A stretch of 64,000 nucleotides of DNA from a virus, in the IMG/VR virus record IMGVR_UViG_3300029922_000017, positions 1-64,000 of that record; one strand, written 5' to 3'. The position numbers were made by a program, and so were the translations under genes. Under the pieces are notes generated by a model. It did no database searches and was not told the DNA's origin. It saw only the letters and a list, made by a program, of their open reading frames with translations. Shown here piece after piece: positions 10,436 through 63,769 of this stretch. Within the stretch, counting starts at the first letter, position 1. Each line of letters starts with the position of its first letter.

Positions 10436-10712
10436 TGTGTTTTTTATTTAGTTCGGTTTTTATAAAATTTGATAGTTCCGATGCACGGTCGTCGGTTAAA
10501 ACTATACTATCTGCCCATGGATTTCCGGTTTTCAATATTCTCCAACACCATCTAATTCTCTCTTTCCATCGTCTAATATTTCCATTATGTCCATAATGCC
10601 ACGCAGATATATTAAATCCATTATCTTCTTTATTAATATAATATCTTTCAGTCTGCAACATATGAGATGAACATTCACATGGAGTGTATAATGATTTATT
10701 GTATTCTTTCAT
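10422..10712 (-). CDS. Hypothetical early protein
   Basis: 96 aa from MKEYNKSLYTP. I choose the ATG at 10712 because a TTGACA-N17-TATAGT promoter ends 7 bases before it; the longer reading frame would start inside the promoter. Aromatic-rich, basic (RRWKERIRWCWRILKTGNPW). Function unknown. Confidence 0.7.
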   Translation of the reverse strand: MKEYNKSLYTPCECSSHMLQTERYYINKEDNGFNISAWHYGHNGNIRRWKERIRWCWRILKTGNPWADSIVLTDDRASELSNFIKTELNKKHNEKK

Positions 10713-10719
10713 TTTAATT

Positions 10720-10748
10720 ACTATAACATATCTTTTAAGATTTGTCAA
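10720..10748 (-). promoter_or_regulatory. Early promoter, leaderless type
   Basis: TTGACA (10748-10743), 17 bases, TATAGT (10725-10720), then 7 bases to the ATG at 10712. With transcription starting about 6-7 bases after the -10 box, the mRNA would begin at or just before the start codon. No Shine-Dalgarno sequence. Confidence 0.75.
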
Positions 10749-10802
10749 TAACTTTTAGAGCGTATGTTGGATATTATCATACAGATAATTAACCGAAATC
10801 TG

Positions 10803-10888
10803 AGGTAGGAACAGGGTTCGAACCTGTGGTGGATTTCCCACTCTTTCTTTCCAAGAAAGTGCAATAAACCAGACTCTGCCACCCTACC
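10803..10888 (-). tRNA. tRNA-Ser(GGA)
   Basis: Acceptor GGTAGGG/TCCTACC, T loop TTCGAAC, anticodon loop TTGGAAA in a CTTTC/GAAAG stem, long variable arm as expected for Ser. Decodes UCC/UCU. CCA not encoded. Confidence 0.85.
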
Positions 10889-10925
10889 ATATGGCTATTT
10901 TAAACTTCCAATAGCCAAAGTTGAG

Positions 10926-11093
10926 TTATTTCGTTGCTGCTTTTACGTCCGCAACTGCCTTGGTAGCATCCGCAACTACTACATTAGTGGTTTTGACGGC
11001 GGCGGCAACTGCCTTAGCATTTGCTTTGCCAACTAAAATTCCACCTACAAATGCAGCGGCTGCAACTACGGCGATTATAATTAAGGTTGTCAT
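10926..11093 (-). CDS. Small membrane-anchored Ala-rich protein
   Basis: 55 aa. N-terminal hydrophobic helix (MTTLIIIAVVAAAAFVGGIL) then an Ala/Lys/Val-rich amphipathic tail. Start 11093, TAA at 10926. Higher GC than its neighbours because of the alanine content. Could be a tail or lysis-related membrane peptide; not identified. Confidence 0.65.
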   Translation of the reverse strand: MTTLIIIAVVAAAAFVGGILVGKANAKAVAAAVKTTNVVVADATKAVADVKAATK

Positions 11094-11170
11094 ATTTTTG
11101 TTATTTTTTCCTATGTGCTTAATTGCACATTCTAACTTATAACTATAATCTGAAATATATAAACCACAGT

Positions 11171-11638
11171 TTATTCGACTATATATTTCTTATATTCTTC
11201 GGTGGAAAACTGTTTAATTCCACGCAATGCACTTGAACTGATATGGCGGAACATCGGTTCACAATAGAATGCCGTGACTTTTAAGTTGGGTTTCATTCTC
11301 CGCAAAAAGGCAATGAGGTTCTGTTCGTATTCCAAATCCGCACCGTTACGAAGCCCACGAACCAACACTACGTTGAAATGCTCATTTTCCAATTCCACGA
11401 TGAAATCTGTTAAAAGCGTGTCATACAACCGGGTCTCAACATTCAATACGTTCAATGCCGAAGTCGGCAACGGATACTTGTCTTCGGGAAGCTTATTCAA
11501 TTTATCGGGATTGATGCCCTTGGCTACAATCACCTTATCAAAGATTTCGACTGCTTGTTTGACGATTGATAAATGTCCGATATGGAATGGAGAGAAAGTC
11601 ACTGGATACAATCCTATGGTTGGGTTATTATTTATCAT
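11171..11638 (-). CDS. coaD: Phosphopantetheine adenylyltransferase
   Basis: 155 aa, close to the family's ~160. Nucleotidyltransferase motif GLYPVTFSPFHIGHLSI (the T/HxGH site), the CoaD block VRGLRNGADLEYEQNLIAF, and ISSSALR near the end all match bacterial CoaD. It joins ATP and 4'-phosphopantetheine to give dephospho-CoA, the fourth step of CoA synthesis. Base composition is less AT-rich than the surroundings, which could mean recent acquisition. The same window has a CoaC-like domain (42549-43652). Confidence 0.88.
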   Translation of the reverse strand: MINNNPTIGLYPVTFSPFHIGHLSIVKQAVEIFDKVIVAKGINPDKLNKLPEDKYPLPTSALNVLNVETRLYDTLLTDFIVELENEHFNVVLVRGLRNGADLEYEQNLIAFLRRMKPNLKVTAFYCEPMFRHISSSALRGIKQFSTEEYKKYIVE

Positions 11639-11681
11639 AATGTGTTATGTATATGTATCGGACATTTAGGATTCATACAGG

Positions 11682-12149: not shown

Positions 12150-12191
12150 AATACCGATAATGATATCATAAGATTGGAAGAAGTCAAGCAG

Positions 12192-12494: not shown

Positions 12495-12512
12495 TCATAT
12501 ATACATATATAA

Positions 12513-12933: not shown

Positions 12934-13221
12934 TCACTTTATCAATAAATCCGTCTCTAAGTCATCGTTACATTTAAGTTCTTCTTCAGAAGTTAAACTA
13001 ACAGTTCTTATAGCTGAAATAGTTTTTTCTGCAATCTCTCTAATGTCTTTTGGAATAGTATCACCAGCAGCATGTAATACGTCAGCGGCAAATTCTTTAT
13101 CAGTTGAAACTCGTTCTCTAATCATGTCAAATGCCAGTTCACGCCGCTTGTCATGAACTTGAATTGCCGAGGAGACGTAGTTTAATTTTAATTTGCGGGA
13201 TAATTTTCTTAATTTACTCAT
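12934..13221 (-). CDS. Hypothetical early protein
   Basis: 95 aa with a very basic N-terminus (SKLRKLSRKLKLNY) and an acidic C-terminus. The ATG is only 5 bases after a TATAAT box (TTGACA-N16-TATAAT), so it should be translated from a leaderless mRNA. Confidence 0.7.
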   Translation of the reverse strand: MSKLRKLSRKLKLNYVSSAIQVHDKRRELAFDMIRERVSTDKEFAADVLHAAGDTIPKDIREIAEKTISAIRTVSLTSEEELKCNDDLETDLLIK

Positions 13222-13226
13222 AATGT

Positions 13227-13254
13227 ATTATATCAGTTAATGTTAAAATGTCAA
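13227..13254 (-). promoter_or_regulatory. Early promoter, leaderless type
   Basis: TTGACA at 13254-13249, 16-base spacer, perfect TATAAT at 13232-13227, ATG starting 5 bases later. One of the clearest examples of the early promoter class. Confidence 0.8.
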
Positions 13255-28067: not shown

Positions 28068-28077
28068 TATATTTATA
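28068..28077 (+). promoter_or_regulatory. Late-type promoter element TATATTTATA
   Basis: TATATTTATA followed by AGT and the ATG of the endonuclease gene at 28081. This element recurs before most endonuclease genes and several structural genes of the window. Confidence 0.6.
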
Positions 28078-28080
28078 AGT

Positions 28081-28890
28081 ATGAATGAAATTGATTATAA
28101 TTTAAATCCATATAAATGTGATGCTTGCCAATCTACTATTCCATATAAAAAAGGAAGGCGCAAATCTAAGTTAGGGTTGAAATTCTGTAATAATTTGTGT
28201 CAAGGTGTTTATACCGAAACATTGAATAAGGAAAATTACTATACAAATCCACTATGTTGTAACCAATGTAATAAAATTATTCCATATAATAATAGAAAAT
28301 CAAATGGAAATTTAAAGTTTTGTAGTAATTTATGCTCTAATACGTATTATAAATATAAAAAATTTACGCCTGAAGTTTTACAAACGATGAGAGAAAAATC
28401 AAAACTAATCCAACCAAAACTATGGGATTTAACCGCTAGGATTGCACACTCCAAAATAATGAAACAAGTTGTAAATAACCATCCAAATTCATATTCTAGT
28501 AATAACATTTGCGGCAGAGTTAAATCAATTCCTATTATTGATAGTCTCGGCAATACTTCTAAATGTCTCGGAAATTGGGAATTGTTGGTATCTAAATTCT
28601 TAACTGACAATAATATTCGATGGACTAACACCATCAATACAGTATTTAATTATAATTGGAATGGGGCTGTCCATAGATATTTCCCAGACTTTAAATTACT
28701 TGATTATACTGGTGTATATATTGAAGTTAAGGGATACGAACGGGAGCGAGACCGAGAAAAATGGAAACAATTCCCGGATACATTAATAATTATTAAATTG
28801 AAAGAAATTAAAGAAATTAAAAATGGAACATTTCAATTGAATATTGGTTGCGGAGCACGGGAGTCGAACCCAGTATCTCTAAGCTTATGA
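28081..28890 (+). CDS. Vsr-like homing endonuclease
   Basis: 269 aa. Two zinc Cys blocks (CDACQS, CNQCNK with paired CSNLC), a NUMOD-like middle, and a C-terminal nuclease core HRYFPDFKLLDYTGVYIEVKG followed by an IIIKLKEI strand. The last 15 codons are antisense to tRNA-Met (28845-28924), so the real functional end may be near residue 255. Plus strand, convergent with the tRNA. Confidence 0.75.
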   Translation: MNEIDYNLNPYKCDACQSTIPYKKGRRKSKLGLKFCNNLCQGVYTETLNKENYYTNPLCCNQCNKIIPYNNRKSNGNLKFCSNLCSNTYYKYKKFTPEVLQTMREKSKLIQPKLWDLTARIAHSKIMKQVVNNHPNSYSSNNICGRVKSIPIIDSLGNTSKCLGNWELLVSKFLTDNNIRWTNTINTVFNYNWNGAVHRYFPDFKLLDYTGVYIEVKGYERERDREKWKQFPDTLIIIKLKEIKEIKNGTFQLNIGCGARESNPVSLSL

Positions 28891-29562: not shown

Positions 29563-29775
29563 TCAATTACGAATTAGTTCTCTCACGATTTCCTCGCCCG
29601 ATTTCCAGCCCCATTTTGGAGTTTGTATATCTTTTAATTGTTCCGATAAATCATTATTTTGAGTCTTCAATTGAAGATTCTCATCTTTCAATTTTTCATT
29701 TTCCGTTTTTAAAATATTGTAAAGATACTTTAGCTCGTAATATTCTCCACAAAAATTATCAGATTCGTAATTCAT
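29563..29775 (-). CDS. Small coiled-coil protein, leaderless
   Basis: 70 aa, mostly a leucine-rich coiled coil (LYNILKTENEKLKDENLQLK). TTGACT-N16-TAGCAT ends 6 bases before the ATG. Confidence 0.65.
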   Translation of the reverse strand: MNYESDNFCGEYYELKYLYNILKTENEKLKDENLQLKTQNNDLSEQLKDIQTPKWGWKSGEEIVRELIRN

Positions 29776-29915
29776 ATTGACATGCTACCATAATTAGAAA
29801 ATAAGTCAAGAGAATAAAATCCTAATGAAGCCGCTACTATATAATGTTTATAACCATCATATTTTGCCTTGTTTAAACCATCCTATGGTCACATCATTAT
29901 TTTACGTAAATTATA

Positions 29916-31975: not shown

Positions 31976-32488
31976 TTACCCATAATAAAAATCTCTCCAA
32001 TTTTCCGGAATATATTTGTCTAGCGATGTTAATTTATCCTTATCCAGTTTCTTTGTATGCATCATTCTATGATGATTGGGACATACATATGCCAAATTCC
32101 AATGTTCATCTGCATTGTCTATTTTCTTTCCATTTATATGGTGAATATCACACGTCGATTCTTTCCATCCACAAATACAACACCCGATATTTAACCGTTT
32201 AAGTATTTTACATGCAGTTCTAGAACTTACGCTTAAAATAGAATCAATTCTTCCTTTATGTTTTCCTATTGAACTATTGATTCCGTTTATACTTCTTTTT
32301 TCTGGGTGTTTATCCCAATATCGTTTAAGTCCATGTCCTATATTTTGTTTTGCTGCATCTGACAGCTTTCGGTGTGAATTATTATATGTTGATGCACATG
32401 ACAAACTACAAAACTTTCCTCTGTTATTACCAGTTGAATATTTCGTTTCAAATTCTTTATTACAATTTACGCAATTTAATGTATTCAT
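31976..32488 (-). CDS. HNH homing endonuclease
   Basis: 170 aa. N-terminal zinc finger (CVNCNKEF...CSLSC), helical linker, and C-terminal HNH CCICGWKESTCDIHHINGKK then NLAYVCPNHHRM. A late-type TATATTTATAGTAT precedes the ATG. Ends 8 bases from tRNA-Tyr. Confidence 0.85.
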   Translation of the reverse strand: MNTLNCVNCNKEFETKYSTGNNRGKFCSLSCASTYNNSHRKLSDAAKQNIGHGLKRYWDKHPEKRSINGINSSIGKHKGRIDSILSVSSRTACKILKRLNIGCCICGWKESTCDIHHINGKKIDNADEHWNLAYVCPNHHRMMHTKKLDKDKLTSLDKYIPENWRDFYYG

Positions 32489-32662
32489 ATACTATAAATA
32501 TACGTGTAGTAGTCGAATCTATGATTTATTTTGTAAATTTTAACAGTTTTCCCCGCTACCCCTACGGAATAATCTTGCATATTAAAGTAATCTAACCTCA
32601 ATTAGATACAGCCATTACTATGTTGACCGAGTTCACTCGCTCTGTGTTTATATAAACATACT

Positions 32663-33334
32663 TTAAAATTTATAGATTCTACCTTTCATCCATCCTTGAG
32701 ATATATACAAGTCCAGTTCCTCTTTTTTTATCTTTTTATTTAATTTTTGTTTCGTTGAGTATATCCAACATGTTCCATATTGTGAATTTAATTTTCCTAT
32801 TCTCTGAGATGCTTTTATTGATTGCTTATCCTTTGTTTCTTGAGTATGTTTACGACCAGACCAATGATGTCCATCTCGACTGAACTTCTCTTTTAAAGCG
32901 GCTGACACTTTTATTTTCCACTCTTCCCATAATCCCTTCTCTATAAGATATTTCTTAACTTCCCTACCATTCCACAAATTTTGTTTTCCATGAGTTTCAT
33001 CTCCAATTCCCGGATATAAATTTTTACCAGTCGAATTTGCGTGTTCCCATGTTCCTTGACCTCCGAGAATAAGATTATATGTATTTTCAGATTCTACGAA
33101 TATAGCATTAACTATTTCTTTTTCTTTATCATACATTGCTTCGGAAGAATCGAATACAAATAAAATTTCTTTTTTAAAATTTTCAATCCCATATTTTGCA
33201 ATTGACCGTTTAAGTAAAGTGCCAGACCCAAGATATTCATCATTTATATTTTTTGTCTTGTGAATGCCAATATAAATTTTATTATTTATAATATTGGTAG
33301 TTTTATATACTGTATATTTATAGTTCGAGTCCAT
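32663..33334 (-). CDS. GIY-YIG homing endonuclease
   Basis: 223 aa from MDSNYKYTVYKTTNIINNK. GIY-YIG core: YTVYKTTNIINNKIYIGIHK, a catalytic Arg around LLKRSIAKYG, and Glu in EKEIVNAIF; then NUMOD3-like repeats (WSGRKHTQETKDKQSIKASQ). A late-type ATATTTATATTC element lies directly before the ATG at 33334. Seg-type enzymes cut near, not in, their own gene. Confidence 0.85.
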   Translation of the reverse strand: MDSNYKYTVYKTTNIINNKIYIGIHKTKNINDEYLGSGTLLKRSIAKYGIENFKKEILFVFDSSEAMYDKEKEIVNAIFVESENTYNLILGGQGTWEHANSTGKNLYPGIGDETHGKQNLWNGREVKKYLIEKGLWEEWKIKVSAALKEKFSRDGHHWSGRKHTQETKDKQSIKASQRIGKLNSQYGTCWIYSTKQKLNKKIKKEELDLYISQGWMKGRIYKF

Positions 33335-33388
33335 GAATATAAATATGGACTCGAACATCGAAACTGTAATTTATTTTCGATTAATTTC

Positions 33389-35610: not shown

Positions 35611-35613
35611 ACC

Positions 35614-35623
35614 TATAAATATA
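35614..35623 (-). promoter_or_regulatory. Late-type promoter element TATATTTATA
   Basis: TATATTTATA, 3 bases, then the ATG at 35610. Same spacing as at 28081, on the opposite strand. Confidence 0.6.
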
Positions 35624-35949: not shown

Positions 35950-36195
35950 TTATTTTATGTGATTTTTTAGTAAATCTCCGGTCTTAATTAATTCCTCGGC
36001 AATATCACATTCCGATTTTTTACTACAAATTCGAGAACAATAAAGTTCTCGAATTAACCATCCATAATCATGAATAAACGATGATATGGCTTCATCTTTA
36101 TCATTTATTTTTCGTAAATATTTATGCTCATCCAGATGTTTTTGGATAACATCGATTTGAGTTTTCATGAATTCTGATAAGTGTTGGCAACTCAT
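35950..36195 (-). CDS. Hypothetical helical protein
   Basis: 81 aa with four spaced Cys (SCQHLSEFM, LYCSRICSKKSEC) and a helical pattern. Preceded by a weak TTGATA/TGATAT promoter. Unknown. Confidence 0.6.
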   Translation of the reverse strand: MSCQHLSEFMKTQIDVIQKHLDEHKYLRKINDKDEAISSFIHDYGWLIRELYCSRICSKKSECDIAEELIKTGDLLKNHIK

Positions 36196-40556: not shown

Positions 40557-40829
40557 TTACTTTTTCTTTTTTAGCGTTTTTCTTGCTTTTCTAAGCAATT
40601 CTGCTTTCTTTTTTTTAGAATATCCTGATACTCGTGTTCTTACAATGTCTGTTTCTTTAGACAGTCCATTTATGAAATCGATATTATCCCGAATTTGTTT
40701 AGTTGTTAATTTTCTCTCAACCAAATTTTCAGGTGGCTCTATTAACTGACGAGCATTAATTTCTCGAATTAATCTTTCCTTTTGAGCATCCGTCGCTCTT
40801 TGCATAGATGGAAAATATTTCGATTTCAT
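40557..40829 (-). CDS. Basic hypothetical early protein
   Basis: 90 aa with Lys/Arg-rich ends (SGYSKKKKAELLRKARKTLK). TTGACT-N16-TATTAT ends 6 bases before the ATG. Possibly nucleic-acid binding. Confidence 0.65.
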   Translation of the reverse strand: MKSKYFPSMQRATDAQKERLIREINARQLIEPPENLVERKLTTKQIRDNIDFINGLSKETDIVRTRVSGYSKKKKAELLRKARKTLKKKK

Positions 40830-40859
40830 GTTGATATAATATCAGATTTTAAATAAAAG

Positions 40860-41120
40860 TCAAGCAATATTATCAATTGCATCTTTTACCTTTTCAATGA
40901 TGGCATCATGCGTATCTTCAATAACATCCTGAAAATCATTGCTTAATTGACCAATTAAATCATTTACAATCTTCCATGTAAATTCTTGCCACTTTTGGCG
41001 GTCTTCATATGAAAGAGAATTTACTTCTGGGTAATGGGAATAATGTTCTTTCCAATTAATGTCAAAGGTTTTGCCGATGTTTGATAATTTATCCAGTGTT
41101 TCGTCGTATTTTTTATTCAT
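40860..41120 (-). CDS. Hypothetical protein
   Basis: 86 aa, helical and acidic, unrecognised. Overlaps the upstream gene by 8 bases. Confidence 0.6.
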   Translation of the reverse strand: MNKKYDETLDKLSNIGKTFDINWKEHYSHYPEVNSLSYEDRQKWQEFTWKIVNDLIGQLSNDFQDVIEDTHDAIIEKVKDAIDNIA

Positions 41121-41345: not shown

Positions 41346-41480
41346 TTAATGTTGAGGAAATGTTATAACTTGCCGATTGTCCATATAAATATTATCCATA
41401 TCAAAATTATTATCGCCAGTTTTACATCCGGCTTCGGACAATAATATTAAAATTAATATGAAAAATAATAAAAAGTTCAT
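41346..41480 (-). CDS. Small lipoprotein-like protein
   Basis: 44 aa: hydrophobic signal (MNFLLFFILILILLSEAGC) with a Cys where a lipobox would end, although -3 is Glu. Probably exported or membrane-anchored. The ATG overlaps the end of the ADP-ribosylglycohydrolase gene by 4 bases. Confidence 0.5.
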   Translation of the reverse strand: MNFLLFFILILILLSEAGCKTGDNNFDMDNIYMDNRQVITFPQH

Positions 41481-42340
41481 AGGGGTGATGCTTTTCCGAT
41501 TTTAACATAAAACCGGTTCACCAATTCAATAATTTCATCGTTCAATCTCAATTTTGCTTTCTTAATTAATTTCGTCGGAATCGTTTCCGTGCCATAAAAT
41601 GCTTCGGCAATGGAACCGGCAATTGCTGCATTGGTATCAGTATCTCCGCCCAAATAAATTGCATTTCTAATTGCCGACTCATAATCCGTAGACTCCATAA
41701 AACATACCAATGCTTGAGGAGCAGTCACGTTACATCGAATAGAGGTCTTTGGAATTGCTCTTGCGTCTTCCACTGACATATCTAACATATGTCCAAATTG
41801 TTCTTCGACATATGCTTTAATTTCCTGCTTAGTCTTACCATGACGAGCCATCCAAATTGCACTAGTAATTGATTTTACTCCACGCTCAGATTCAGGAGAA
41901 TTATGAGTCTGTTGAATGCTTGAGATTGCCATTTTATACATGTTATCCATATTAGATTCGGGAAACCTAGAATAATACATAGCAATTGGGCTACACCGCA
42001 TCATACATCCATTAGCATAACTATTATTAACAGTATAATATTCGCTATCCTTGGTTTTAACCCATTCTTTAAATGCTCCACCATATCCTCTGTCTGGATA
42101 TTTTACTGCCCACATTTTATAAGATGCAGCGAAGTTAGGAAGTGCCAGTATATTGTCTGAATTTGGCATTATTATTGATAATATCGTTTCGGCAATTGCA
42201 CATGTCAATACAGTATCATCCGTAAAACGACTGTTAGAATAGAACATGTTAAAGTTCTTTGTGCCAACCGGACGTTTCGGGTATTGTGGGCTACTTTCAT
42301 ATACCGACCCTGCGATGTCGCCAATAATTGCTCCTATCAT
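41477..42340 (-). CDS. ADP-ribosylglycohydrolase
   Basis: 287 aa from MIGAIIGDIAGSVYES, the usual start of the family (the longer frame uses a TTG). Metal-binding motifs FTDDTVLT and GGDTDTNAAIAG are intact. These enzymes remove ADP-ribose from proteins or nucleic acid and could reverse host ADP-ribosylation-based defence or the phage's own modifications. Overlaps its small zinc-ribbon neighbour (ATGA). Confidence 0.88.
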   Translation of the reverse strand: MIGAIIGDIAGSVYESSPQYPKRPVGTKNFNMFYSNSRFTDDTVLTCAIAETILSIIMPNSDNILALPNFAASYKMWAVKYPDRGYGGAFKEWVKTKDSEYYTVNNSYANGCMMRCSPIAMYYSRFPESNMDNMYKMAISSIQQTHNSPESERGVKSITSAIWMARHGKTKQEIKAYVEEQFGHMLDMSVEDARAIPKTSIRCNVTAPQALVCFMESTDYESAIRNAIYLGGDTDTNAAIAGSIAEAFYGTETIPTKLIKKAKLRLNDEIIELVNRFYVKIGKASPL

Positions 42341-42513
42341 AGTTTTATTTCTTTCTTCCAAAAATATTTATATTTCATTCCTTCAATATCCGGTTTACAA
42401 TTAATACAATAATAATCTCCAGCTTTAATCGATTCCCATTGATATTCATTTAAAAATGAATTTTCTGGCTGTATCACTTCTTGTAATTCTAAATTGCAAC
42501 ATGGACATCTCAT
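42337..42513 (-). CDS. Small zinc-ribbon protein
   Basis: 58 aa: CPCC and CINC pairs (MRCPCCNLELQEVIQPENSF at the start). Its TGA overlaps the ATG of the ADP-ribosylglycohydrolase, suggesting co-translation. Confidence 0.65.
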   Translation of the reverse strand: MRCPCCNLELQEVIQPENSFLNEYQWESIKAGDYYCINCKPDIEGMKYKYFWKKEIKL

Positions 42514-42548: not shown

Positions 42549-43652
42549 TCAATTAAATATTGGGGTTGGGTCTATTAAATCATTCCAATCAGATTTATTA
42601 TCGCCAACTTCTTCAAATGCACGATATATTCCATGTTTATATAATTCAATATGAAGCATGGAAGTGTTATGACCTTGGATGTCAGGTCTTTCTTTTCCTT
42701 CTTTAAGGACTCTCTTTACATTTCCTATAAAATCCCCAGATTTTAATTTCTTTCCAATTTTCATTCCAAAATCAATATCAATTTCACCATAACAAACTAC
42801 TCCGGATGCACCTTCTACTAAAACACATTTAGTATCATTCCACCACGGAGTTTGTTGAGAAGAACCAGTGAACTCTTCAATTCCTACTACGGTTCCAGAT
42901 TCAACTGCATATACGGATGCCCCATCATTGGTATATAAATCAACACCGGTATGAGTATGATGTTTTCTTTTTGTTAAAAATGCGCCGGGATGTCCTTTAA
43001 TTGGAATTCCAGAACAATTAGTGTTTTTCGAATCATCAAATCTCCAATGTAATGGGAAATGCCATTTCAATGAATTATTTACTTCTTTAACAATATCCGA
43101 AATATCAGCCAATGCTCCCATACCTTCCGTTTTGCAAGCCAACATTTTTGATTGTGGCATTACAATCTTATATCCCCAGTTGGTTAATTTATCCAAGTGT
43201 TCTTTAGTAACTGGATGTTCCCACATCGCTGTATTCGCAGCGCCGGCAATAATTAGGGGTCTATTCATATCCCACGCACGAACAACCGAGGTTAATAAGT
43301 TATCACATAATCCATTGGCAATTTTTCCCATTGTATTTAATGAACATGGGGCAATTACAAGTGCCGATGCTTGATTTCTTATATTAATATGAAGAACTCC
43401 ATCTCCAGTTTTCCACTTGCTAGTGATACGTCCTGTCGTTGGGTCTTGCCATTGCCATTCGTCGTCATCAACATAATAAATTCCACCTAGTTTTTCAACT
43501 AACAGTGCCAGTTCCAAGCAATCTATAAAATGTCTGGCTGAGTTAGTAATTATAGTATCGACTATAAAATGTTCACTCAATTGAGTGACCAGCTTCTTCC
43601 ATAATACAGTGGCAACGCTACCAGTCAATCCTAACAGTATTCGACGTTTCAT
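42549..43652 (-). CDS. CoaC-like flavoprotein fused to M23-like domain
   Basis: 367 aa. Residues 1-200 match phosphopantothenoylcysteine decarboxylase: GLTGSVATVL, catalytic His in GVLHINIRNQAS, APCSLNTMGKIANGLCDNLL, the AANTAMWEHPVT Asn loop and Cys in KMLACKTEGMGAL. Residues about 205-367 resemble M23/LytM metallopeptidases: KHHTHTGVDLYTNDGASVYA and LHIELYKHG; the first His of the usual HxH is Met here. The gene is leaderless (TATACT 6 bases before ATG). The decarboxylase assignment is strong; peptidase activity is doubtful. Confidence 0.82.
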   Translation of the reverse strand: MKRRILLGLTGSVATVLWKKLVTQLSEHFIVDTIITNSARHFIDCLELALLVEKLGGIYYVDDDEWQWQDPTTGRITSKWKTGDGVLHINIRNQASALVIAPCSLNTMGKIANGLCDNLLTSVVRAWDMNRPLIIAGAANTAMWEHPVTKEHLDKLTNWGYKIVMPQSKMLACKTEGMGALADISDIVKEVNNSLKWHFPLHWRFDDSKNTNCSGIPIKGHPGAFLTKRKHHTHTGVDLYTNDGASVYAVESGTVVGIEEFTGSSQQTPWWNDTKCVLVEGASGVVCYGEIDIDFGMKIGKKLKSGDFIGNVKRVLKEGKERPDIQGHNTSMLHIELYKHGIYRAFEEVGDNKSDWNDLIDPTPIFN

Positions 43653-48761: not shown

Positions 48762-49132
48762 AATTTTATTTTATCTAATAGTTGTTTAACATAATTGTAA
48801 CAATAATTTACTTCATAATCCAATCCGGTGTAGTATTCGTCTTTATAGTCTTTATATGGAATGCCAATTATATAATTTGTAAAATCGTTATATAAAAATT
48901 CTGCCGTAGGTATTTGTGTCAAAGTTAATTGATTATCTTCATTATATACCGATCTCATTATTGGTATGACACATCTGGCGAAAAATTCAGAATCGGGCGT
49001 TGTTTCAACTGTGTTTTTTACACATAATTGAGTTATCGCTTCCAGATTATTGGCACAGTGTTCGATTTTATCATCGGTTAAATAATCCAATAATCCGGTT
49101 TGCTTCCATTTTGTAATTATGTTATTATTCAT
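48758..49132 (-). CDS. Paralogue 2 of second cassette gene (124 aa)
   Basis: Duplicate of 45491-45868 in length, order and in the KWxxTGLLD and PTAEFLYNDF/PIAAEIYKDY blocks. Function unknown. Confidence 0.7.
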   Translation of the reverse strand: MNNNIITKWKQTGLLDYLTDDKIEHCANNLEAITQLCVKNTVETTPDSEFFARCVIPIMRSVYNEDNQLTLTQIPTAEFLYNDFTNYIIGIPYKDYKDEYYTGLDYEVNYCYNYVKQLLDKIKL

Positions 49133-49170
49133 ATCAATTATTATAGTTTATTTTAAATCAAATGTAAACT

Positions 49171-50434: not shown

Positions 50435-50476
50435 ATGAACTACCCATCCCCTAAAGGAGATGGGTTTCCTCTTTCA
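50435..50476 (-). repeat. TnpB element right end with hairpin
   Basis: Minus strand: AAACCCATC/GATGGGTAG stem around CTCCTTTAGGG, then GTTCATGAG. The same layout (hairpin with a CTTTAG core, then GGGTAGTTCA) occurs at 52040-52087. By analogy with TnpB elements it would contain the omega-RNA scaffold end, and the bases after GGGTAGTTCA would be the guide. Confidence 0.6.
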
Positions 50477-51647
50477 TCCAACTCTTTTTGAGTTGTCCAG
50501 AGGCTACTTCGGGTTGTCCCAACCCTAGTTTTTTGATATTGTTTGCTGCTAAAATGTCTCTGTCATGTGTTACTTTACACATCGGACAAGTCCATTCTCT
50601 ATCTTTCAAAGTTAGAGAATGATTTATGTATCCACAAGAACATAATTTGGATGATGGTTCAAATCGTCCAATTTGGATGAAGTTCTTTCCATACCAATCA
50701 CATTTGTATTTCAAAATGTTGGTAAACGAATTCCATCCTACATCAGCAATTTGTTGATGTCTCATTTTTTCAAGGAAACGATATTCGTCTCTTTCATCAA
50801 CATCTTTATTTTCCATCATATCCTTTGTAGATAGAGTTTCCATACAAATTGTCTTCACTTGGTTATCGTGTGTCAACTTATGACTTAACTTGTGGTGGAA
50901 ATCTTTTCTACAATTGGTTATTTTTTCGTGTGTTTTAGCAACCTTTATTCTTTGTTTGTTTCTATTATTACTTCCTTTTGTTTTCTTTGATAATTGTCGT
51001 TGTTGTTTCTTGAGTTTTTTGAGAAATCGTTTTAATGGTTTAGGATTTTCAATCTTTTCTCCGTTGGAGAATGTAGCAAAGTGTTTCAATCCCAAATCAA
51101 TTCCAATGGTTGTTTTTTCATTTACTTTTGGATTGGATGGAAGTTCTTTCCCATCTTCAACCAAAATAGAAATGAAGTATTTGCCTGTGGTAGTTCGTGA
51201 GACATAAGACGAAGATATGTCTCCCTCAAATTGTCTGTCAAAGACACACGTAATTCCTCCAAGGAACTTTGGAATGATTACTTTTCCTTTTTCAAAATCC
51301 ACTTTAGTATTTTGTGGAATACGAAACTTTTGGTCATTCCTCTTACATTTGAATTTTGGATATGCTACTTTCTTTTTGAAAAATGAAGTGTATGCTTTAT
51401 CCAAATCCTCAAGTTTGGACTGGATAGAAAGAGAACCGACTTCGGCAAGCCAAGGTTGTTCACCCTTCTTCATTTTTGGAAGTTCTGCTTGAAGTTCGTA
51501 TCTTGAGAGATTTGTTTTATCTTTTTGGTAGGCTTCCATTTTCTTACCTAATGCCCAATTCCACACAAATCTTACACATCCAAAATGCTTCTCCAAAAGA
51601 ACTTTTTGTTCCTTGTTTGGATATATCCTATATTTGAATGCTCGTAT
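50451..51647 (-). mobile_element. tnpB: TnpB (IS200/IS605-type nuclease)
   Basis: 398 aa from a GTG (MIRAFKYRIYPNKEQKVLLE). RuvC-like residues: Asp in TTIGIDLGLKHFATF, Glu in ICMETLSTKDMM and Asp in THDRDILAANNI. The zinc knuckle is SSKLCSCGYINHSL...CPMC, one residue shorter (CxC) than usual. No TnpA recombinase is in the window, so the element is IS1341-like. TnpB is an RNA-guided nuclease and CRISPR-Cas12 ancestor. Intact except for the knuckle. Confidence 0.9.
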
Positions 51648-51712
51648 CACAACAATACATATCATTGACTTTTAGAAAACATCAACTTATTTTCTAAATT
51701 GTGTCAATTCAT

Positions 51713-52087: not shown

Positions 52088-54746
52088 ACGACGCCATCTG
52101 CAAATCATCATTCCCATATGCTCCCATGTAAGTTGCGTCATAATCATTTATAATATAATTTAATAATGAGGTTAGTGTTGGTAGATGTTTGACACTTCCC
52201 GATTTAAAATCTATACGAACACTGAAATTGGGATTTATGAGAATGGAGTCGGAATTAATTTTATTATGGTATTTATTATTGGAAGTATTCCATATAAATC
52301 CCTTCTCGGTCAAATATTGTTCATTGGTAGGACTTAATTTTTTACCGCCTACTTTTCCAGTTGATTGTTTATTGGTTGGAACTGGTGTTTTCCCAATAAA
52401 TCCATTGTCATCATAATTATCGGCTATATATTGGGTCATATCATTAATTGGCTTACTCAATTTAATTCCGGCAAATTGTGCCGATACCAATACTGATTTA
52501 TCATTATTAAAGAATGTAACGGTATCATTATTCTTTCTATGTTTATAATAAGTTATACCGCCATTATTTAATACTTCAAATCCACGGGACACCATTCCCA
52601 TTTCATCTCCATCCGTTAAACGTATGGATTTTGGAGGTGTATTCAATCCAACGTGTAGAGTATAATCTGAACTTGAGGTTGAATTTGGAGGAATGACCGA
52701 TGGTTTTTTAGTATACATCTGGGCAGTTGTAGAAGTTGTGCCTCCATATATATTGGACGCATATGTATTTCCGCCATAATATGGGTCCCAATTACCATTA
52801 ACATCATAATGTCCTTTGGTGTGTTGGTCGGGACTCGCCTTCTGTGTAAGAATGGGCGTTGACGGAGGGGGCGGATTTAAACTATAGTCTGCATTATGTA
52901 TTTGTGTCGGTGTTAATGTATGAAATTTTAATTCGGTATTTTTCTCGGAACATCTCTTGAATAAGTCGTCAAAGTTATTAAATGTCTCTATATACGCCAT
53001 ATCATATCTAATTCCAATTGCATATGTCCCATCAGTAAATGCCGCCGCAGTTAGCATTTTCGGTTCGGCATTACCATCCGTATCTACGACATTAAAATTG
53101 GCAAATTCCAGTCGTTCGAAATCCGATGGGCGAATATTAATGGTTAAAAATTTAAGTTTTTGTTCTTTTGTAAAGTCAGTGACGGCTCGACGAGCGGCAT
53201 ACATCGTATATCGAGGCAATTTTGTAATATTGTCACCATGTTCTTTTTTAAATTTTTCAATTGCTTCATTAAAATCATGGAACACCTGTGCATCGGAGTC
53301 ATCGTCTGTGTTTATAGTTATGATGTTATTTTCGTGAATTTTTAAGTTATATTTTAGTATTTTAATTTGGTTGTCTTTATTTTTATATTTCACGCTGGCA
53401 CTATAATTCGTCCCATCCATGGTATTAAAATCTAAAGAGTCTAATATTTTTTTCTGCTCCGGAGTGGCGTGTATAGCAGGTGAATTTATATATTCTTCCA
53501 TCTTTCGCTCATCTTCCGGATTACCCGGTAAATATACCAAACACCTATTGATTAATTGTTTTATAACGGGCGAAACATCTTCCAAATATCTGGCAACGTG
53601 AGTTACTCTGGCACGTCTATCCAAATCCCGTTGAGGAATAAATAACCCTCCCTTATTTAACATAGGACCGGAATTATGTGCTAAATCATAAATGTGGTCA
53701 ATAGCAGCCGATATTTTTTCGTAATTATGAGATTGTAATTCGGGCATTAACTTAATAAAGGCAGTCGCTCCAGTTCCCCATGCTGGTCCACCATACGAAC
53801 TTTCGCTCCATGCAATTTTGGAATAGGCATTTTCAATGTCTTTCCAAGTTAGTTTGGAGTTATTAATTGCATGATTTATTTTAGCCACCACTTTTGAACT
53901 TATCTGTCCACCAACCGAATAATCATCCTCGGTTAATAGACATATTTCGTTTATGAAATTCTCATTTGTGCTTTCCGAGTCCCAGAAGGGGTCATATTTT
54001 TTCCAGTAATCATCTTCGGTGTCATCGGTTGGTTCTGCATCGGAAAGTTCTGGGTCTTCTTCCGGTTTATATTCATTATCTGGTTTAGGTTCGATTTTGT
54101 CTAGGTCATCGGTAGCATCTGGTTCTTTTTCGGGTTCTTCCGGCTCCGGAACATCTCCAGTGCCAACATAATTATTATCATACAATGCGGAGAACTTCAG
54201 GAGTCGTTTGACCGACTCTTCTTGTCCTGTCATACTCGGCAAATATGTTTTTACAAGTTTATTAAACCTTTCTTTTGAAATTGTCGTTTTGTTTGGTTGT
54301 TTTTCCAGATAAATTGTATTTCTAAATGATAGCCATTGATGTGATTTATTAAAAATATGCCTTAACTCTTGGACTAATGCCATTCTCAAATATCCTGACA
54401 ACTTGGTTCCCAATATTTTTGTAACTTGTTCGAATACGTCATCAATAATAACTCTTAATTTATGAGGAGCAATTTTACCACCCATCATAGGATATTCAAC
54501 ATCATCCCAATTTGTCCCCGCCGCAAATCCAGCACCAAAATTCGGGTCGGTCTTTGCTGCATGGACTTTTGCACCGGTTGACATGGGGAGTGGCGTTCCA
54601 AGAATACGATGTAAGTATTCCATGGCATAAAAATCGTAAAATATACGTTTGGAAGCAGTAGTATCACCCGTTTTCAGGAGATTTATTTTCGGAGGTGTAT
54701 ATCGCAATCTCTCAACCAAGAGAGAGGCTAACAAAATTCGACTCAT
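52086..54746 (-). CDS. Large hypothetical protein, C-terminus formed by IS end
   Basis: 886 aa. N-terminal 190 residues are helical; residues 195-260 are a Pro/Glu/Asp-rich linker; the rest is mixed with Gly/Tyr/Thr-rich parts (DPYYGGNTYASNIYGGTTST). No recognised domain; size and late-type ATATTTATAATC element before the ATG suggest a virion protein. Its stop TGA lies in the TnpB right end (reverse complement of GTTCA), so the original C-terminus may be longer. Confidence 0.65.
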   Translation of the reverse strand: MSRILLASLLVERLRYTPPKINLLKTGDTTASKRIFYDFYAMEYLHRILGTPLPMSTGAKVHAAKTDPNFGAGFAAGTNWDDVEYPMMGGKIAPHKLRVIIDDVFEQVTKILGTKLSGYLRMALVQELRHIFNKSHQWLSFRNTIYLEKQPNKTTISKERFNKLVKTYLPSMTGQEESVKRLLKFSALYDNNYVGTGDVPEPEEPEKEPDATDDLDKIEPKPDNEYKPEEDPELSDAEPTDDTEDDYWKKYDPFWDSESTNENFINEICLLTEDDYSVGGQISSKVVAKINHAINNSKLTWKDIENAYSKIAWSESSYGGPAWGTGATAFIKLMPELQSHNYEKISAAIDHIYDLAHNSGPMLNKGGLFIPQRDLDRRARVTHVARYLEDVSPVIKQLINRCLVYLPGNPEDERKMEEYINSPAIHATPEQKKILDSLDFNTMDGTNYSASVKYKNKDNQIKILKYNLKIHENNIITINTDDDSDAQVFHDFNEAIEKFKKEHGDNITKLPRYTMYAARRAVTDFTKEQKLKFLTINIRPSDFERLEFANFNVVDTDGNAEPKMLTAAAFTDGTYAIGIRYDMAYIETFNNFDDLFKRCSEKNTELKFHTLTPTQIHNADYSLNPPPPSTPILTQKASPDQHTKGHYDVNGNWDPYYGGNTYASNIYGGTTSTTAQMYTKKPSVIPPNSTSSSDYTLHVGLNTPPKSIRLTDGDEMGMVSRGFEVLNNGGITYYKHRKNNDTVTFFNNDKSVLVSAQFAGIKLSKPINDMTQYIADNYDDNGFIGKTPVPTNKQSTGKVGGKKLSPTNEQYLTEKGFIWNTSNNKYHNKINSDSILINPNFSVRIDFKSGSVKHLPTLTSLLNYIINDYDATYMGAYGNDDLQMAS

Positions 54747-54788
54747 GATTATAAATATGAGATTAAAAGCAAAAACCCATCATAAAAT

Positions 54789-54865
54789 GGTGGAAATGCT
54801 CGGAATTGAACCGAGGTCTTGAATACTAATTCATAACGATACTACATGGTTATTTCATTTTAATT
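54789..54865 (-). pseudogene. Degenerate tRNA
   Basis: T arm CTCGG/CCGAG with loop TTCAATT, CATTTCC, A, CCA are clear. The 5' side gives only GAAAT to pair and no clear anticodon arm. Isolated from the tRNA cluster. Confidence 0.5.
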
Positions 54866-54869
54866 TAAT

Positions 54870-55300
54870 CTTGATTTTTTTAATGAACAATACATTTCAA
54901 GCATTGATAATTTATTGAGTTATCAACGATCATATAATTTTAACTATATGCGGTTTACTCACTATTAGAGCAATAAGAATTTTAATGAGTATCCAGTCTT
55001 ATTTCGGCAACTAGACCAATTCTAATTCGGGCGTATTGATTTCTTCATTCAGAAAGAATGAAAAATCCAACGCTGCAATCTGCGCTAGGCGGTTTGCATT
55101 TGGTTTTTAATTATATTTTTAACGAGGCCATATAATAAACCCTCCCCATGCATCGTTATGTCAAAGAATTCGGTCGATACCATTACATTCCCATTAACAT
55201 TAATAACTATAACAAAATTTGGCTAAACTGTCAATTAAATTTAATCCCAAAACAGAATATTGGGGATAATAAGTCATATAATAGTTTAAAATAAGTTCGT
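54870..55300 (-). other. Noncoding stretch with one promoter-like site
   Basis: TTGACA-N17-TATAGT at about 55205-55234 is followed after 5 bases by ATG, but the frame is only 5 codons long. A second TTGACA lies at about 55160. No gene supported; may hold a small RNA. Confidence 0.35.
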
Positions 55301-57888: not shown

Positions 57889-58509
57889 TTAGGTTATATG
57901 TTGTTTTAAAATTGCAGGTATGTTATTTAAATCTTTATATGAAATTCGCAATAGTTTAATGTTATTTTTTATGGCATATTCATCTTTAAGCTTGTCGTGT
58001 AATTTTAATCTAGCCAATTTATCATCAGATATTATATGGCCTTTAATGTTATTACATCCAAAATGCTGTTGTCCATCAAATTCTATTAGTAAGTTATGAT
58101 ATGGAATATAGAAATCATATTTTAGTGGTCTATTCATATCACTTCTAAGAGTGTCAAATGTCTGTTGTGATTTATGTGCTATTTTATTAATACTTAAATA
58201 TGTAGAAATAGCCAATTCGCCTTTAGATAATTGACAGATAGGACATCCCTGAGAATTGAATATATGATTTTCTGGAGTTTTCCAAAAATAACTATCATGT
58301 TTAATACATTTAATCTGGATACTCTTCTTGCTTCCTATATACGTCGAATCCGAGTAATCATATAAATCACCATGTATTTTTCTGGCTCTAATAATGAACT
58401 CGTTGAGAGTTAATTTTTCGCCGCCAAAATTTCCATTATGTAGTTTATAATTTCGTCTTCTATTACATTGTCTACATTCGCACTTGAGAATTGTTTTTAT
58501 ATTGCTCAT
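57889..58509 (-). CDS. Vsr-like homing endonuclease
   Basis: 206 aa. N-terminal CRQCNRRRNYKLHNGNFGG, a zinc block (CIKHDSYFWKTPENHI, CPIC), and a C-terminal nuclease core YDFYIPYHNLLIEFDGQQHF with KNNIKLLRISY. A late-type ATATATTTATATATT element precedes the ATG. Confidence 0.78.
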   Translation of the reverse strand: MSNIKTILKCECRQCNRRRNYKLHNGNFGGEKLTLNEFIIRARKIHGDLYDYSDSTYIGSKKSIQIKCIKHDSYFWKTPENHIFNSQGCPICQLSKGELAISTYLSINKIAHKSQQTFDTLRSDMNRPLKYDFYIPYHNLLIEFDGQQHFGCNNIKGHIISDDKLARLKLHDKLKDEYAIKNNIKLLRISYKDLNNIPAILKQHIT

Positions 58510-58514
58510 AATAT

Positions 58515-58880
58515 ATAAATATATTGAGGTAGAATAAAAGTAGTATAAATAAATTTTATTTTCCAGATTTTTTAGTATATAACCTAATTAGACCTAAATT
58601 CTAACCTATTAAAATCTTTATTTCGAGTTATTTCATTCTACATATATTCTACTTTTATTTTATCTAAAAGTGATTTGCGAATAGTGAATATATAGGGGCC
58701 GGCTGGTGCCACCCCCACCTTCTTTCGACCAGAAGCAACCCTAATATACCAATACGGGTAGGGTATCCTATTTTAATCCTACTATATAGGGTAAGTGGTT
58801 ACATTATTATACTTACTATAAGGTAAAATAAAAAACGCATCAAATGATTATTCACTTGACACGTTGTTTGAATTGTGCTA
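58515..58880 (-). other. Noncoding stretch
   Basis: AT-rich with an imperfect inverted repeat of AGAATAAAAGTAG (about 58529 and 58640) and no reading frame I can support. It separates the endonuclease group from the terminal small-gene run. Confidence 0.4.
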
Positions 58881-60362: not shown

Positions 60363-60665
60363 TTAGGACTTGGCAAATTCAACCTTGTCAAACCCGTTGT
60401 AGTTACGGAACTTCTTCTGGAACAAGGCATTCGGGGCGATGGGCTGGTTCGGCAGCAATCCTTCATTGCCAGCCGCAATCACGAAGGTTGACTTGAACTG
60501 GATTTTTTCGGACTTGATGGCGTTGATAATGTTTTCAACGGTGGCAGTCTTGTTCTTGCCAGCCACGATTCCGGCTTGCTTGGCCACGTTACGCAATTCG
60601 GCTTGCGTCATAGTGCGGAGGGAGATGAAAGCGATGGCAGTGGAGTTGTTATTGATTTTGGTCAT
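60363..60665 (-). CDS. Hypothetical early protein
   Basis: 100 aa from MTKINNNSTAIAFISLRTMT. The promoter TTGACA-N18-TATTCT lies upstream with a leader of about 45 bases rich in A and C. The longer frame would start within that leader. Middle resembles a small SAP/HeH-like helical unit (AELRNVAKQAGIVAGKNKTA), possibly DNA binding. Confidence 0.6.
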   Translation of the reverse strand: MTKINNNSTAIAFISLRTMTQAELRNVAKQAGIVAGKNKTATVENIINAIKSEKIQFKSTFVIAAGNEGLLPNQPIAPNALFQKKFRNYNGFDKVEFAKS

Positions 60666-60888
60666 ATGTTTTTGTTTTTTGTTGTTAATGTTGACTGACA
60701 AGAAAGAATATATAGATTTTAATTAAAATGTCAAATGATTTCGTCAAATTTAATCCAGATTGTTGTATCGGTCTGGTCGGGTTGGTCGGATAAAGTTTAA
60801 TTTTCATAATTGAAATTATAGGGATTTTCAGATTAATTGCAAGATAATTCGTAAATTATTTTTTGAAGTTTTCAATTGACAATAGTAT

Positions 60889-61059
60889 CTATAATATTCG
60901 AGTCTCTCTCGGTGAAAGTGACCCAGTAAAAATAAAACTCCCGCTGCCATTTCTGACAACGGGAGACAACATTGCATAAGCATGGTCAACCGACCTTTGT
61001 TTTTTGATAGCCTGTTCCCGTGACAATCCTCGACGTTTCCAGTTTGGTTTTCTTGCCAT
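60889..61059 (-). CDS. Small basic leaderless protein
   Basis: 56 aa: MARKPNWKRRGLSREQAIKK at the start. TTGACA-N16-TATACT ends 6 bases before the ATG. Near its 3' end the message has a CTCCCG/CGGGAG stem followed by TTTTATTTTT, a terminator-like element inside the frame. Confidence 0.65.
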   Translation of the reverse strand: MARKPNWKRRGLSREQAIKKQRSVDHAYAMLSPVVRNGSGSFIFTGSLSPRETRIL

Positions 61060-61065
61060 GGGAAT

Positions 61066-61093
61066 AGTATATCTATTTGAAATGGAATGTCAA
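61066..61093 (-). promoter_or_regulatory. Early promoter, leaderless type
   Basis: TTGACA (61093-61088), 16 bases, TATACT (61071-61066), 6 bases to the ATG. Confidence 0.85.
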
Positions 61094-61853: not shown

Positions 61854-61889
61854 ATGTTGATAAAGAGTATGGAGATTTTTATCTAAATG

Positions 61890-62124
61890 TCAAATAGAAT
61901 TACGGTTTTCCTGATACTCCTTATAGCGAGCAACGGCAATTTCAACGTCATCCCTATGAATTTCCATTGAATGATAATCCTTGCTATTGCCTTTAATTCG
62001 CAATCCTTCACCAAGCATGGGATATTCATCCTTCCAATTCTGACAAAAGTAACGGCTGGCATATTGACATTGTTGCCCCCATCTGTTTGCGAGCAACATC
62101 ACCAAAATCTACAAAATCATTCAT
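61890..62124 (-). pseudogene. Early gene with a +1 frameshift
   Basis: From the promoter-linked ATG (62124) the frame reads MNDFVDFGDVARKQM; after the GGGGG run at 62076-62080 the protein-like sequence (QCQYASRYFCQNWKDEYPML, EIHRDDVEIAVARYKEYQE) is in another frame. One fewer G would join them into about 78 aa. Promoter TTGCAA-N16-TATATT lies 7 bases up. Confidence 0.6.
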
Positions 62125-62336
62125 ATGAAAGAATATACCTATTTATATTTTAATTGCAAGGATTATTTCAAACTATTTTCTATTCTCGAATGACGAATAG
62201 TAACTCGAATATTATAGATACTATTTCAAAAAACGAAGTCTCTTCCTCACCTTCCGCATTTAGTATACTAAATTCAATTAGAAATAGCAACAACAAATCT
62301 CACTTATTTTACACTCGACTTTATATTTATATTCAT

Positions 62337-62440
62337 AGCGTAGAAAACTATTAACAATTTGCAATTCCCTAATAAGTTCTTCAAATAAGAATTCTACGCT
62401 TATCTTATTAGGGAATTTGCTTTGCAAAAGCGTAGAAAAC
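62337..62440. repeat. MITE-like repeat upstream of endonuclease gene
   Basis: AGCGTAGAAAACT occurs as direct repeats at 62337-62349 and 62428-62440; between them AATTCCCTAATAAG and CTTATTAGGGAATT form a 14-base inverted repeat and ATTCTACGC is inverted relative to the ends. May be a mobile footprint or a regulatory hairpin. Confidence 0.55.
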
Positions 62441-62442
62441 TT

Positions 62443-62931
62443 ATGTCATATAAAAATAAAGAAGATGCTAAAGCATTTCACAGAAGATATTATTTAGCCC
62501 ATAGAGAAGAAGCTTTACTGAAAAGTAAAGCGTGGAGAACTAACAATCCAGAATTAGCCGCAAAGCAAAAAAGAGAACATCATATTAAAAATCGTGAAGT
62601 ATTACTGGCAAAAGCTGCTATTTACAGAAAAAACAATAGAGAAACTTTATTGGAAAAGAGCAGATTAAGAAGACAGAAAAAACTTGACAATTTAGGATTT
62701 TCTGGTATAGAACACTGTGAAATTTGTGGCCGTAATAAATCGGAATTTAAGAAAGGATTAGCAGTTGACCATTGCCATGAGACCGGAAAAATACGGGGAT
62801 TATTATGTTATTTATGTAATACTAATCTATGAAGATATAGTGATAATATCAAATTATTAGAGAAGTCAATTAACTATCTTAAAAAGCATAATACTCCACA
62901 AGAAACTAATCCAGTGGAGTATTATATTTGA
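62443..62931 (+). pseudogene. Endonuclease VII-like gene with in-frame stop
   Basis: From ATG 62443: basic repeats (MSYKNKEDAKAFHRRYYLAH) and the endonuclease VII-type HNH core HCEICGRNKSEFKKGLAVDH then HETGKIRGLLCYLCN. A TGA at 62830-62832 interrupts; the same frame goes on to RYSDNIKLLEKSINYLKKHN and ends at 62931. TGA is a stop elsewhere, so the gene is probably broken, though the catalytic core is complete before the stop. Confidence 0.7.
62891..62921 (+). terminator. Terminator-like hairpin
   Basis: AATACTCCAC and GTGGAGTATT form a 10-bp stem at the end of the endonuclease-VII-like reading frame. Confidence 0.5.
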
Positions 62932-62934
62932 GAT

Positions 62935-63472
62935 TTACCGTTTAACCACAATTAGTCCCCTCGCCCGCAATTTTTGAATGTTGTTAAGCGTAACTGTGCG
63001 GACAACTGGCTTAAACTCGTTAAGGGCAGAACTAGCGTAGAAATAAGGCTTTAGGGCATCATAATCAATCCGCTTTCCAGTTTCATCAAAATATCCCGTT
63101 TCTTCCGTTTTCTTGGACTTGGAAGGATAATAAAACAGATAAAACTTTCCATCATCTTTGGTTTTATTAACCCGAATTGGGGTCATTTTTCCGTCGGGCA
63201 TATAAGGAGCGTGCCAAGAATCCGCCGGAATGTATTCAACTTCACTTGCGGCAACGCCAAGCAATGCTGCTGTCTTTTTTTCTACGGCACGCTTGTAATC
63301 TATATTCAACCATCCTTTAACTATGGCCCGTTTAATAACGCCTTTGAAAGGACAAGTCTTTTTCAATGTCGGCTCGGTAATTGTTTCGGCTGAAAAGAAT
63401 TGACTATTGGTTCCGATACCAGTGAGAAAATCCACCATTGAAGGAACGGACATTTTAAGAGTTGTTTTCATA
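62935..63472 (-). CDS. Hypothetical early protein
   Basis: 178 aa from MKTTLKMSVPSMVDFLTGIG. The promoter TTGACT-N16-TATACT is followed by an A-rich leader of about 45 bases. No recognised domain; mixed alpha/beta with basic patches (KTCPFKGVIKRAIVKGWLNI). Confidence 0.65.
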
Positions 63473-63553
63473 TGTTGTTTTTTGTTAATGTTAATTGTTA
63501 CTGACAAAGGAGAGTATAGAGATTTTTATCTTAAAGTCAAAAAGAAAATGGAT

Positions 63554-63769
63554 TTATTTTAATTTATCCATATTTTGCCATTTATAGACAGTTTCACAAA
63601 ATTCATAATTAAAATCCCGCATATAGCAAATGCCCTGAAAAAATCCAATATGGTTACTCAAACCCCATGCCAGACTTTTCGGTGAATCTGCTAATGCAAT
63701 GGCAGACTTTTGGCAACCCGAATCAATGTAAGCAATCAATTCTTCAAGAGTGCAAGTTTTGTAATTCAT
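63554..63769 (-). CDS. Hypothetical early protein
   Basis: 71 aa (MNYKTCTLEELIAYIDSGCQ at the start). TTGACT-N16-TATACT ends 14 bases before the ATG with the AACATATG context. Unknown. Confidence 0.6.
   Translation of the reverse strand: MNYKTCTLEELIAYIDSGCQKSAIALADSPKSLAWGLSNHIGFFQGICYMRDFNYEFCETVYKWQNMDKLK

Follow-up and report, generated by a model that had tools for sequence, protein, structure and literature searches.

Leaderless messenger RNAs (mRNAs), which open with their own start codon, are already known to serve whole gene classes in a phage, and a TA signal near the start is an established mark of such genes. In the Thermus phage phiYS40, middle and late transcripts are leaderless in a host lineage rich in leaderless genes, and an upregulated initiation factor IF2 together with a downregulated IF3 has been invoked (PMC3594737). 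Among cellular genes, leaderless ones are recognized in published work by a Pribnow-like signal ~10 bp ahead of the start codon (PMC3160421), and in Flavobacterium johnsoniae most mRNAs carry a leader, which exceeds 10 nt in 87% (PMC6847099). Here, we describe sigma70-type promoters that abut ATG start codons, a geometry that predicts leaderless mRNA, in the phage of IMG/VR virus record IMGVR_UViG_3300029922_000017. The window is the whole 64,000-nt stretch analysed, bases 1 to 64,000 of a 138,917-bp record that is probably incomplete; the other 75 kb were read as stretches L002 to L005, and gene starts came from a simple purpose-written caller (273 called starts).

Systematic abutment of promoter and ATG, which an earlier note on the window's sequence had proposed, was found record-wide and proved more extensive than that note said. 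The record holds 70 strict TTGAC-N17-TATA[ACT]T promoters, and in 50 of them an ATG follows the -10 box at a gap of 5 to 8 nt (25 at gap 7, 18 at gap 6, six at gap 8, and one at gap 5), with ~1-2 ATGs per position elsewhere and nearly none at gaps 0 to 4. Eight second-order Markov genomes of the same composition yielded 0 to 2 strict promoters and none with an ATG at gap 5-8, while a promoter at this gap preceded 52 of 273 called starts vs 19 among the 5466 other ATGs (odds ratio 67 by Fisher's test, p ~5e-55), some of these 19 likely being true starts that the caller overlooked. The pattern TTGAC-N17-TATAHT-N5..8-ATGA matched 46 times in this record and 30 times in a 353-kb relative, and its reverse never did. 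The earlier note would have been refuted by a spacing equal to that at random ATGs; genome-wide the two differ, and chance is excluded as the source of the abutment. The spacer is 16 nt in 68 of 75 promoter-bearing genes, an UP-like A/T tract and an A-rich spacer are conserved across 54 sites, and a -10-like signal ~10 bp upstream of start codons rises above background, as in TA-led leaderless gene classes. The densest run lies in L002 (64-84 kb), just beyond the window, where many successive small genes each have their own ATG-abutting promoter.

Within the window, we re-scored the 15 ATGs that the earlier note had listed, all on the minus strand, and each has a sigma70-type promoter whose -10 box ends 5-8 nt before the ATG. 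The -35 boxes score 5/6 or 6/6 and the -10 boxes 4/6 to 6/6, the exception being 23052 with a 4/6 -35 box. Two details needed amendment: the start given as 61610 should read 61609, and the "at least sixteen" genes announced were listed as fifteen, to which our scan adds 49132, 25087, and a weak site at 36195. A further promoter, before ATG 63769, stands at gap 11. The sites below are given as window coordinates, strand, promoter, gap, ATG, and open reading frame (ORF).

10712-10748, minus: TTGACA-N17-TATAGT, gap 7, ATG 10712; ORF of 96 aa (10422-10712)
13221-13254, minus: TTGACA-N16-TATAAT, gap 5, ATG 13221; ORF of 95 aa
13646-13682, minus: TTGACC-N17-TACACT (weak -10), gap 7, ATG 13646; ORF of 131 aa
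18139-18175, minus: TTGACA-N16-TATACT, gap 8, ATG 18139; ORF of 61 aa
19581-19616, minus: TTGACT-N16-TATAAT, gap 7, ATG 19581; ORF of 31 aa
22791-22825, minus: TTGACA-N16-TATAAT, gap 6, ATG 22791; ORF of 78 aa
23052-23087, minus: TATACA (weak -35, 4/6)-N17-TATACT, gap 6, ATG 23052; ORF of 76 aa
24154-24188, minus: TTGACA-N16-TATAAT, gap 6, ATG 24154; ORF of 43 aa
25087-25123, minus: TTTACA-N17-TATAGT, gap 7, ATG 25087; ORF of 241 aa, newly added
29775-29809, minus: TTGACT-N16-TAGCAT (weak -10), gap 6, ATG 29775; ORF of 70 aa
31089-31123, minus: TTGACA-N16-CATAAT, gap 6, ATG 31089; ORF of 68 aa
40278-40313, minus: TTGACT-N16-TATACT, gap 7, ATG 40278; ORF of 109 aa, DUF1937
40829-40863, minus: TTGACT-N16-TATTAT, gap 6, ATG 40829; ORF of 90 aa
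43652-43686, minus: TTGACT-N16-TATACT, gap 6, ATG 43652; ORF of 367 aa, flavoprotein and M23 peptidase domains
49132-49168, minus: TTTACA-N17-TATAAT, gap 7, ATG 49132; ORF of 124 aa, newly added
61059-61093, minus: TTGACA-N16-TATACT, gap 6, ATG 61059; ORF of 56 aa
61609-61644, minus: TTGACA-N16-TATACT, gap 7, ATG 61609; ORF of 71 aa
63769-63808, minus: TTGACT-N16-TATACT, gap 11, ATG 63769; ORF of 71 aa, a 5' untranslated region of ~4 nt expected

Shine-Dalgarno (SD) sequences, which the earlier note had found missing from the listed genes, are near background genome-wide: AGGAG or GGAGG stands upstream of 0 of the 273 starts, and operon-internal genes are no exception, their upstream regions being A-rich and mostly ending in T before the ATG. 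The start codon is ATG in 266 of 273 cases, and its context is marked, with T at -1 in 73% of starts vs 33% of internal Met codons and A at +4 in 75% vs 30%. Overlapping ATGA stops were ruled out as the origin of A(+4), which is strongest in the leaderless class (74/86). The resulting UAUGA complements the anticodon loop, UCAUA, of the bacterial initiator tRNA, a match that may aid initiation where an SD sequence is missing. Phage-borne helpers of SD-free initiation were looked for in the form of bS21 and IF3 genes, and neither was found. A phage-borne initiator tRNA was considered as well; read by eye, the two tRNA-Met(CAT) genes of the window end in G1-C72 or G1-T72, without the initiator mismatch, and resemble tRNAs of the elongator or Ile type. 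Recoding of the genetic code was ruled out, TAA, TGA, and TAG each being used as stops. The window carries 32 tRNA genes in all (10802-40538, minus strand), singly or in small groups amid small genes, with several duplicates (His-GTG twice, Glu-TTC twice) and one odd anticodon, ATA.

The placement is not confined to early-type promoters, as the earlier note would have had it. An AT-rich box, ATATTTAT, which we call late-type, stands 4-6 nt before an ATG in 14 of its 20 upstream occurrences in this phage, and relatives place it alike (gap 4-8 in 27/40 for G003; gap 4-6 in 7/10 for G004 and 6/7 for G002). In the window it precedes chiefly homing-type endonucleases plus one 886-aa protein.

28069-28083, plus: late-type box ATATTTAT, gap 4, ATG 28081; endonuclease-like, 269 aa
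14555-14571, minus: late-type box, gap 6, ATG 14557; NUMOD3/endonuclease-like
32486-32501, minus: late-type box directly before ATG 32488; HNH endonuclease
33332-33346, minus: late-type box, gap 4, ATG 33334; weak GIY-YIG match
35608-35622, minus: late-type box, gap 4, ATG 35610; HNH endonuclease
54744-54758, minus: late-type box, gap 4, ATG 54746; the 886-aa protein
58507-58522, minus: late-type box, gap 5, ATG 58509; HNH/homing endonuclease

In L006 and L007, the starts of the orthologs of the 886-aa protein follow the box at a distance of 9-10 nt. The T4 late box, TATAAATA, was searched for the same placement at starts and does not show it; the positioned box is ATATTTAT. A T4 late promoter read in reverse was ruled out as well, the position being fixed relative to the downstream ATG. 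Timing is assigned here from promoter type, and "late" should be taken as a presumptive label because the major capsid (gp23) gene of G003 has no such box directly upstream.

Leaderless geometry is the main mode of the early-type promoters and not the sole one, because about seven of them are leadered; the claim that the whole early-type class is leaderless therefore did not hold. These promoters lie ~24-44 nt from -10 box to ATG across G-poor, A/C-rich sequence such as AACAAAAAACAAAAC, and further early-type promoters stand before tRNA or transfer-messenger RNA (tmRNA) genes or before no clear gene.

63471-63540, minus: leadered early-type promoter, 41 nt from -10 box to ATG 63471; A/C-rich leader without SD, ...AACAAAAAACAACAT ATG
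60665-60734, minus: leadered early-type promoter TTGACA-N16-TATATT, 41-nt leader; A/C-rich, ...AACAAAAAACAAAAACAT ATG

The tmRNA gene itself (window 54788-55192, minus; RF00023, 82.8 bits) has its own TTGACA-N17-TATAGT promoter, and eight of the nine clade records contain a tmRNA, with long, unusual predicted tags (ANLNRLANLDFSFSVNEVEVAVA in G004; ANRLAQIAALDFSFFLNEEINTPELELV in this phage, by eye). Three TTGACA-N16 promoters without an abutting ATG lie within 600 bases on the minus strand (window 38817, 38443, and 38251), two of them near-identical (GAAAATAGTGTAGAAT), and possibly serve small RNAs.

The description of this phage as T4-like, also from the earlier note, is borne out by gene content. 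The record encodes rIIA, rIIB, and a T4-type RNA ligase/tail-fibre attachment protein (PHROG matches), and the relative G003 (353,772 bp; L008, L020), whose rIIA is 52% identical, has a T4-type gp23 gene (E 6e-57); together these support relatedness to T4. A search for a gp23-type capsid gene in this incomplete record and in the relatives found it in G003 alone, and 24 kb of the window, compared with 50,697 phage records, gave no near match. Also encoded are a NAD-dependent DNA ligase, thymidylate synthase (ThyA), a PhoH-like protein, and numerous HNH and GIY-YIG endonucleases. Host assignment was attempted from single genes and gave no identification: rIIA, searched in genome contigs, had no match, a TnpB-type transposase had just a 34% Clostridiales match, and the best matches of ThyA and NAD ligase in known phages, at ~41% or less, were scattered across hosts.

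Relatives share much of this organization. In G003, G004, G005, and G001, the same analysis gave SD near background and a gap peak at 6-9, and G001 keeps gap 6 with an unrelated promoter sequence; in the more distant ThyA-sharing contigs L021-L029, SD sites are present and the abutment pattern is absent. Two RNA ligase orthologs (50% and 47% identity; L075, L076) keep the -35 and -10 boxes, with ~5 and 8 nt separating the -10 box from the ATG, and NAD ligase has gap 9 in this phage and in G003 alike, their ATGs aligned. Gene by gene, conservation of the abutment, as judged from such alignments, is partial.

Set beside the described systems, this phage shares with phiYS40 the build of a large tailed dsDNA phage and, as its promoter geometry predicts, would share class-wide leaderless transcripts; it differs in that host-type TTGACA promoters plus the late-type box carry the predicted leaderlessness, whereas the phiYS40 class is middle and late. 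In the phiYS40 stretch that we analysed identically, SD sites numbered 16 vs 6.0 expected, unlike the near-background level throughout this phage, and the -10 peak was milder (6/51 vs 1.5 expected). With T4 the phage shares, besides the genes named above, host-type promoters and a separate AT-rich box before homing endonucleases; the boxes serve similar genes with different sequences (TATATTTAT here vs TATAAATA in T4). In a 30-kb T4 stretch, unlike in this phage, SD sites exceed background and no promoter stands at gap 5-8. For the class-wide leaderless mRNA that the earlier note called unusual in a T4-like phage, phiYS40 is a precedent. The TA-led genes of Deinococcus-Thermus and Actinobacteria place their Pribnow-like signal as this phage does, but as a cellular trait of ~20-40% of genes, compared with a phage clade, a full TTGACA -35 box, and low GC here. 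Bacteroidetes likewise lack SD, and their start region is unstructured and rich in A, including an A at -3; the sigma factor of F. johnsoniae, however, reads TTTG/TAnnTTTG and not TTGACA/TATAAT. What is new, then, lies in how the features come together: TTGACA promoters that are strong and keep a fixed distance, another promoter class placed likewise, and SD near background in all genes, clade-wide.

We consider it probable, at roughly 80%, that most promoter-proximal genes of this phage are leaderless and translated without SD, likely as an adaptation to an SD-independent host. Sigma70-type RNA polymerase usually begins transcription 7-8 nt beyond the -10 box and favours a purine after a pyrimidine. 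The base preceding the ATG is T or C in 47 of the 54 strict sites, which creates a YA initiator there; this and the distance make the A of AUG the probable +1. Host-type RNA polymerase would thus bind TTGAC(A/T)-N16-TATA(A/C)T and start at the A of AUG, and the mRNA would open with its start codon and be read without SD pairing, start choice being set by the 5'-terminal AUG, the UAUGA context, and low structure. Initiation on such AUG-starting mRNAs would be by 70S ribosomes or IF2-assisted, routes reviewed for leaderless mRNA (PMC9031893). The likewise placed late-type ATATTTAT box would extend the rule to both classes of transcription; a minority of the early units have A/C-rich SD-free leaders, and operon-internal genes, also SD-less, probably start by AUG context and coupling. 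We infer that the likely cause, and the simplest one, is a host with SD-independent ribosomes rather than a trick of one gene class, because SD is lacking genome-wide, operon-internal genes included; host and phage would then both start translation in a non-textbook way.

Several observations weigh against this interpretation. The looser five-motif SD set was found 13 times vs 7.8 expected, and T(-1) is likewise 73% in Bacteroides phage crAss001, so that this element is not peculiar to leaderless genes. The GC-richer relatives G006 and G007 have few such promoters and a weaker peak, rIIB has gap 6 here vs 21 in G003 (leaderlessness is thus not fixed per gene), many orthologs have no recognisable promoter, and the relative's ATG aligns exactly in just 9 of 18 ortholog alignments that reach the N-terminus. 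Transcription may also start 1-3 nt upstream of the AUG, gaps of 7-9 leaving such a remnant. The last point leads to an explanation that we hold unlikely, in which polymerase starts a few nucleotides upstream, or the true start codon lies downstream, giving 1-5-nt leaders that are not truly leaderless. It would fit gap 7 being the commonest in the strict set and the 9-12-nt gaps that also occur, but the pyrimidine before the ATG and the nine exact ortholog alignments speak for the AUG as called, and a leader of 1-5 nt leaves no room for an SD and would be functionally near-leaderless.

About equally improbable is that one promoter and start-codon block was copied many times for small early genes, the constant spacing reflecting common descent and not selection for leaderless mRNA. 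Two promoter sub-families do have a common spacer sequence (AAAAATAGATATACTCTTATATG; AATCTAAAATCAATATACTCTCAAATATG, the latter also in G003), and the UP-like tract and A-rich spacer of the 54 sites point the same way; the window sites, however, have unrelated spacers and downstream sequence, gaps spread over 5-8 about a single mode, G001 reaches gap 6 from an unrelated promoter sequence, and a different promoter type, the late box, is placed alike. Copied blocks would, moreover, still yield leaderless mRNA. Minimal intergenic space as the mere source of the abutment is suggested by tightly packed genes with frequent overlaps, yet it seems very improbable, given that ATGs cluster at gaps 6-8 and hardly occur at 0-4, that compact T4 shows no such abutment in the 30 kb tested, and that the same genome also has promoters with A/C-rich leaders.

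Several further genes of this phage deserve mention. An unusual flavoprotein-M23 peptidase domain fusion (window 42549-43652, minus) lies behind a predicted leaderless promoter, with an ADP-ribosylglycohydrolase at 41477-42361 (minus). The IS200/IS605-type transposase (TnpB-like; window 50451-51665, minus) has its best known phage match, at 43%, in Microcystis phage Mic1. A radical-SAM protein (L003:15425-16459, minus; record 99425-100459) is 49.5% identical over 97% to a protein of Bacteroides phage Versailles, its remaining phage matches being ~30% or less. This phage is matched at 100% identity by a 4.1-kb contig stretch (L074) that belongs to another metagenome record.

More tentatively, and with the balance somewhat on the side of doubt, a whole T4-related phage clade may have abandoned SD, nearly all its promoter-proximal mRNAs, from host-type and phage-type promoters, being leaderless through a UAUGA that matches the initiator-tRNA anticodon loop; its host lineage would combine canonical sigma70 promoters with SD-free, largely leaderless translation and be experimentally undescribed. 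A limited literature search for leaderless translation in cyanophages or Patescibacteria found nothing. Should mapped transcripts agree, this phage would be among the clearest cases of gene expression built on leaderless mRNA across more than a single promoter class, and a T4-style takeover without SD sites becomes testable. Programs that call start codons after training on SD may misplace genes in this phage, and a -10-to-ATG gap of 6-7 nt, the lack of SD, and UAUGA together offer a signature for the metagenomic detection of phages of SD-independent hosts.

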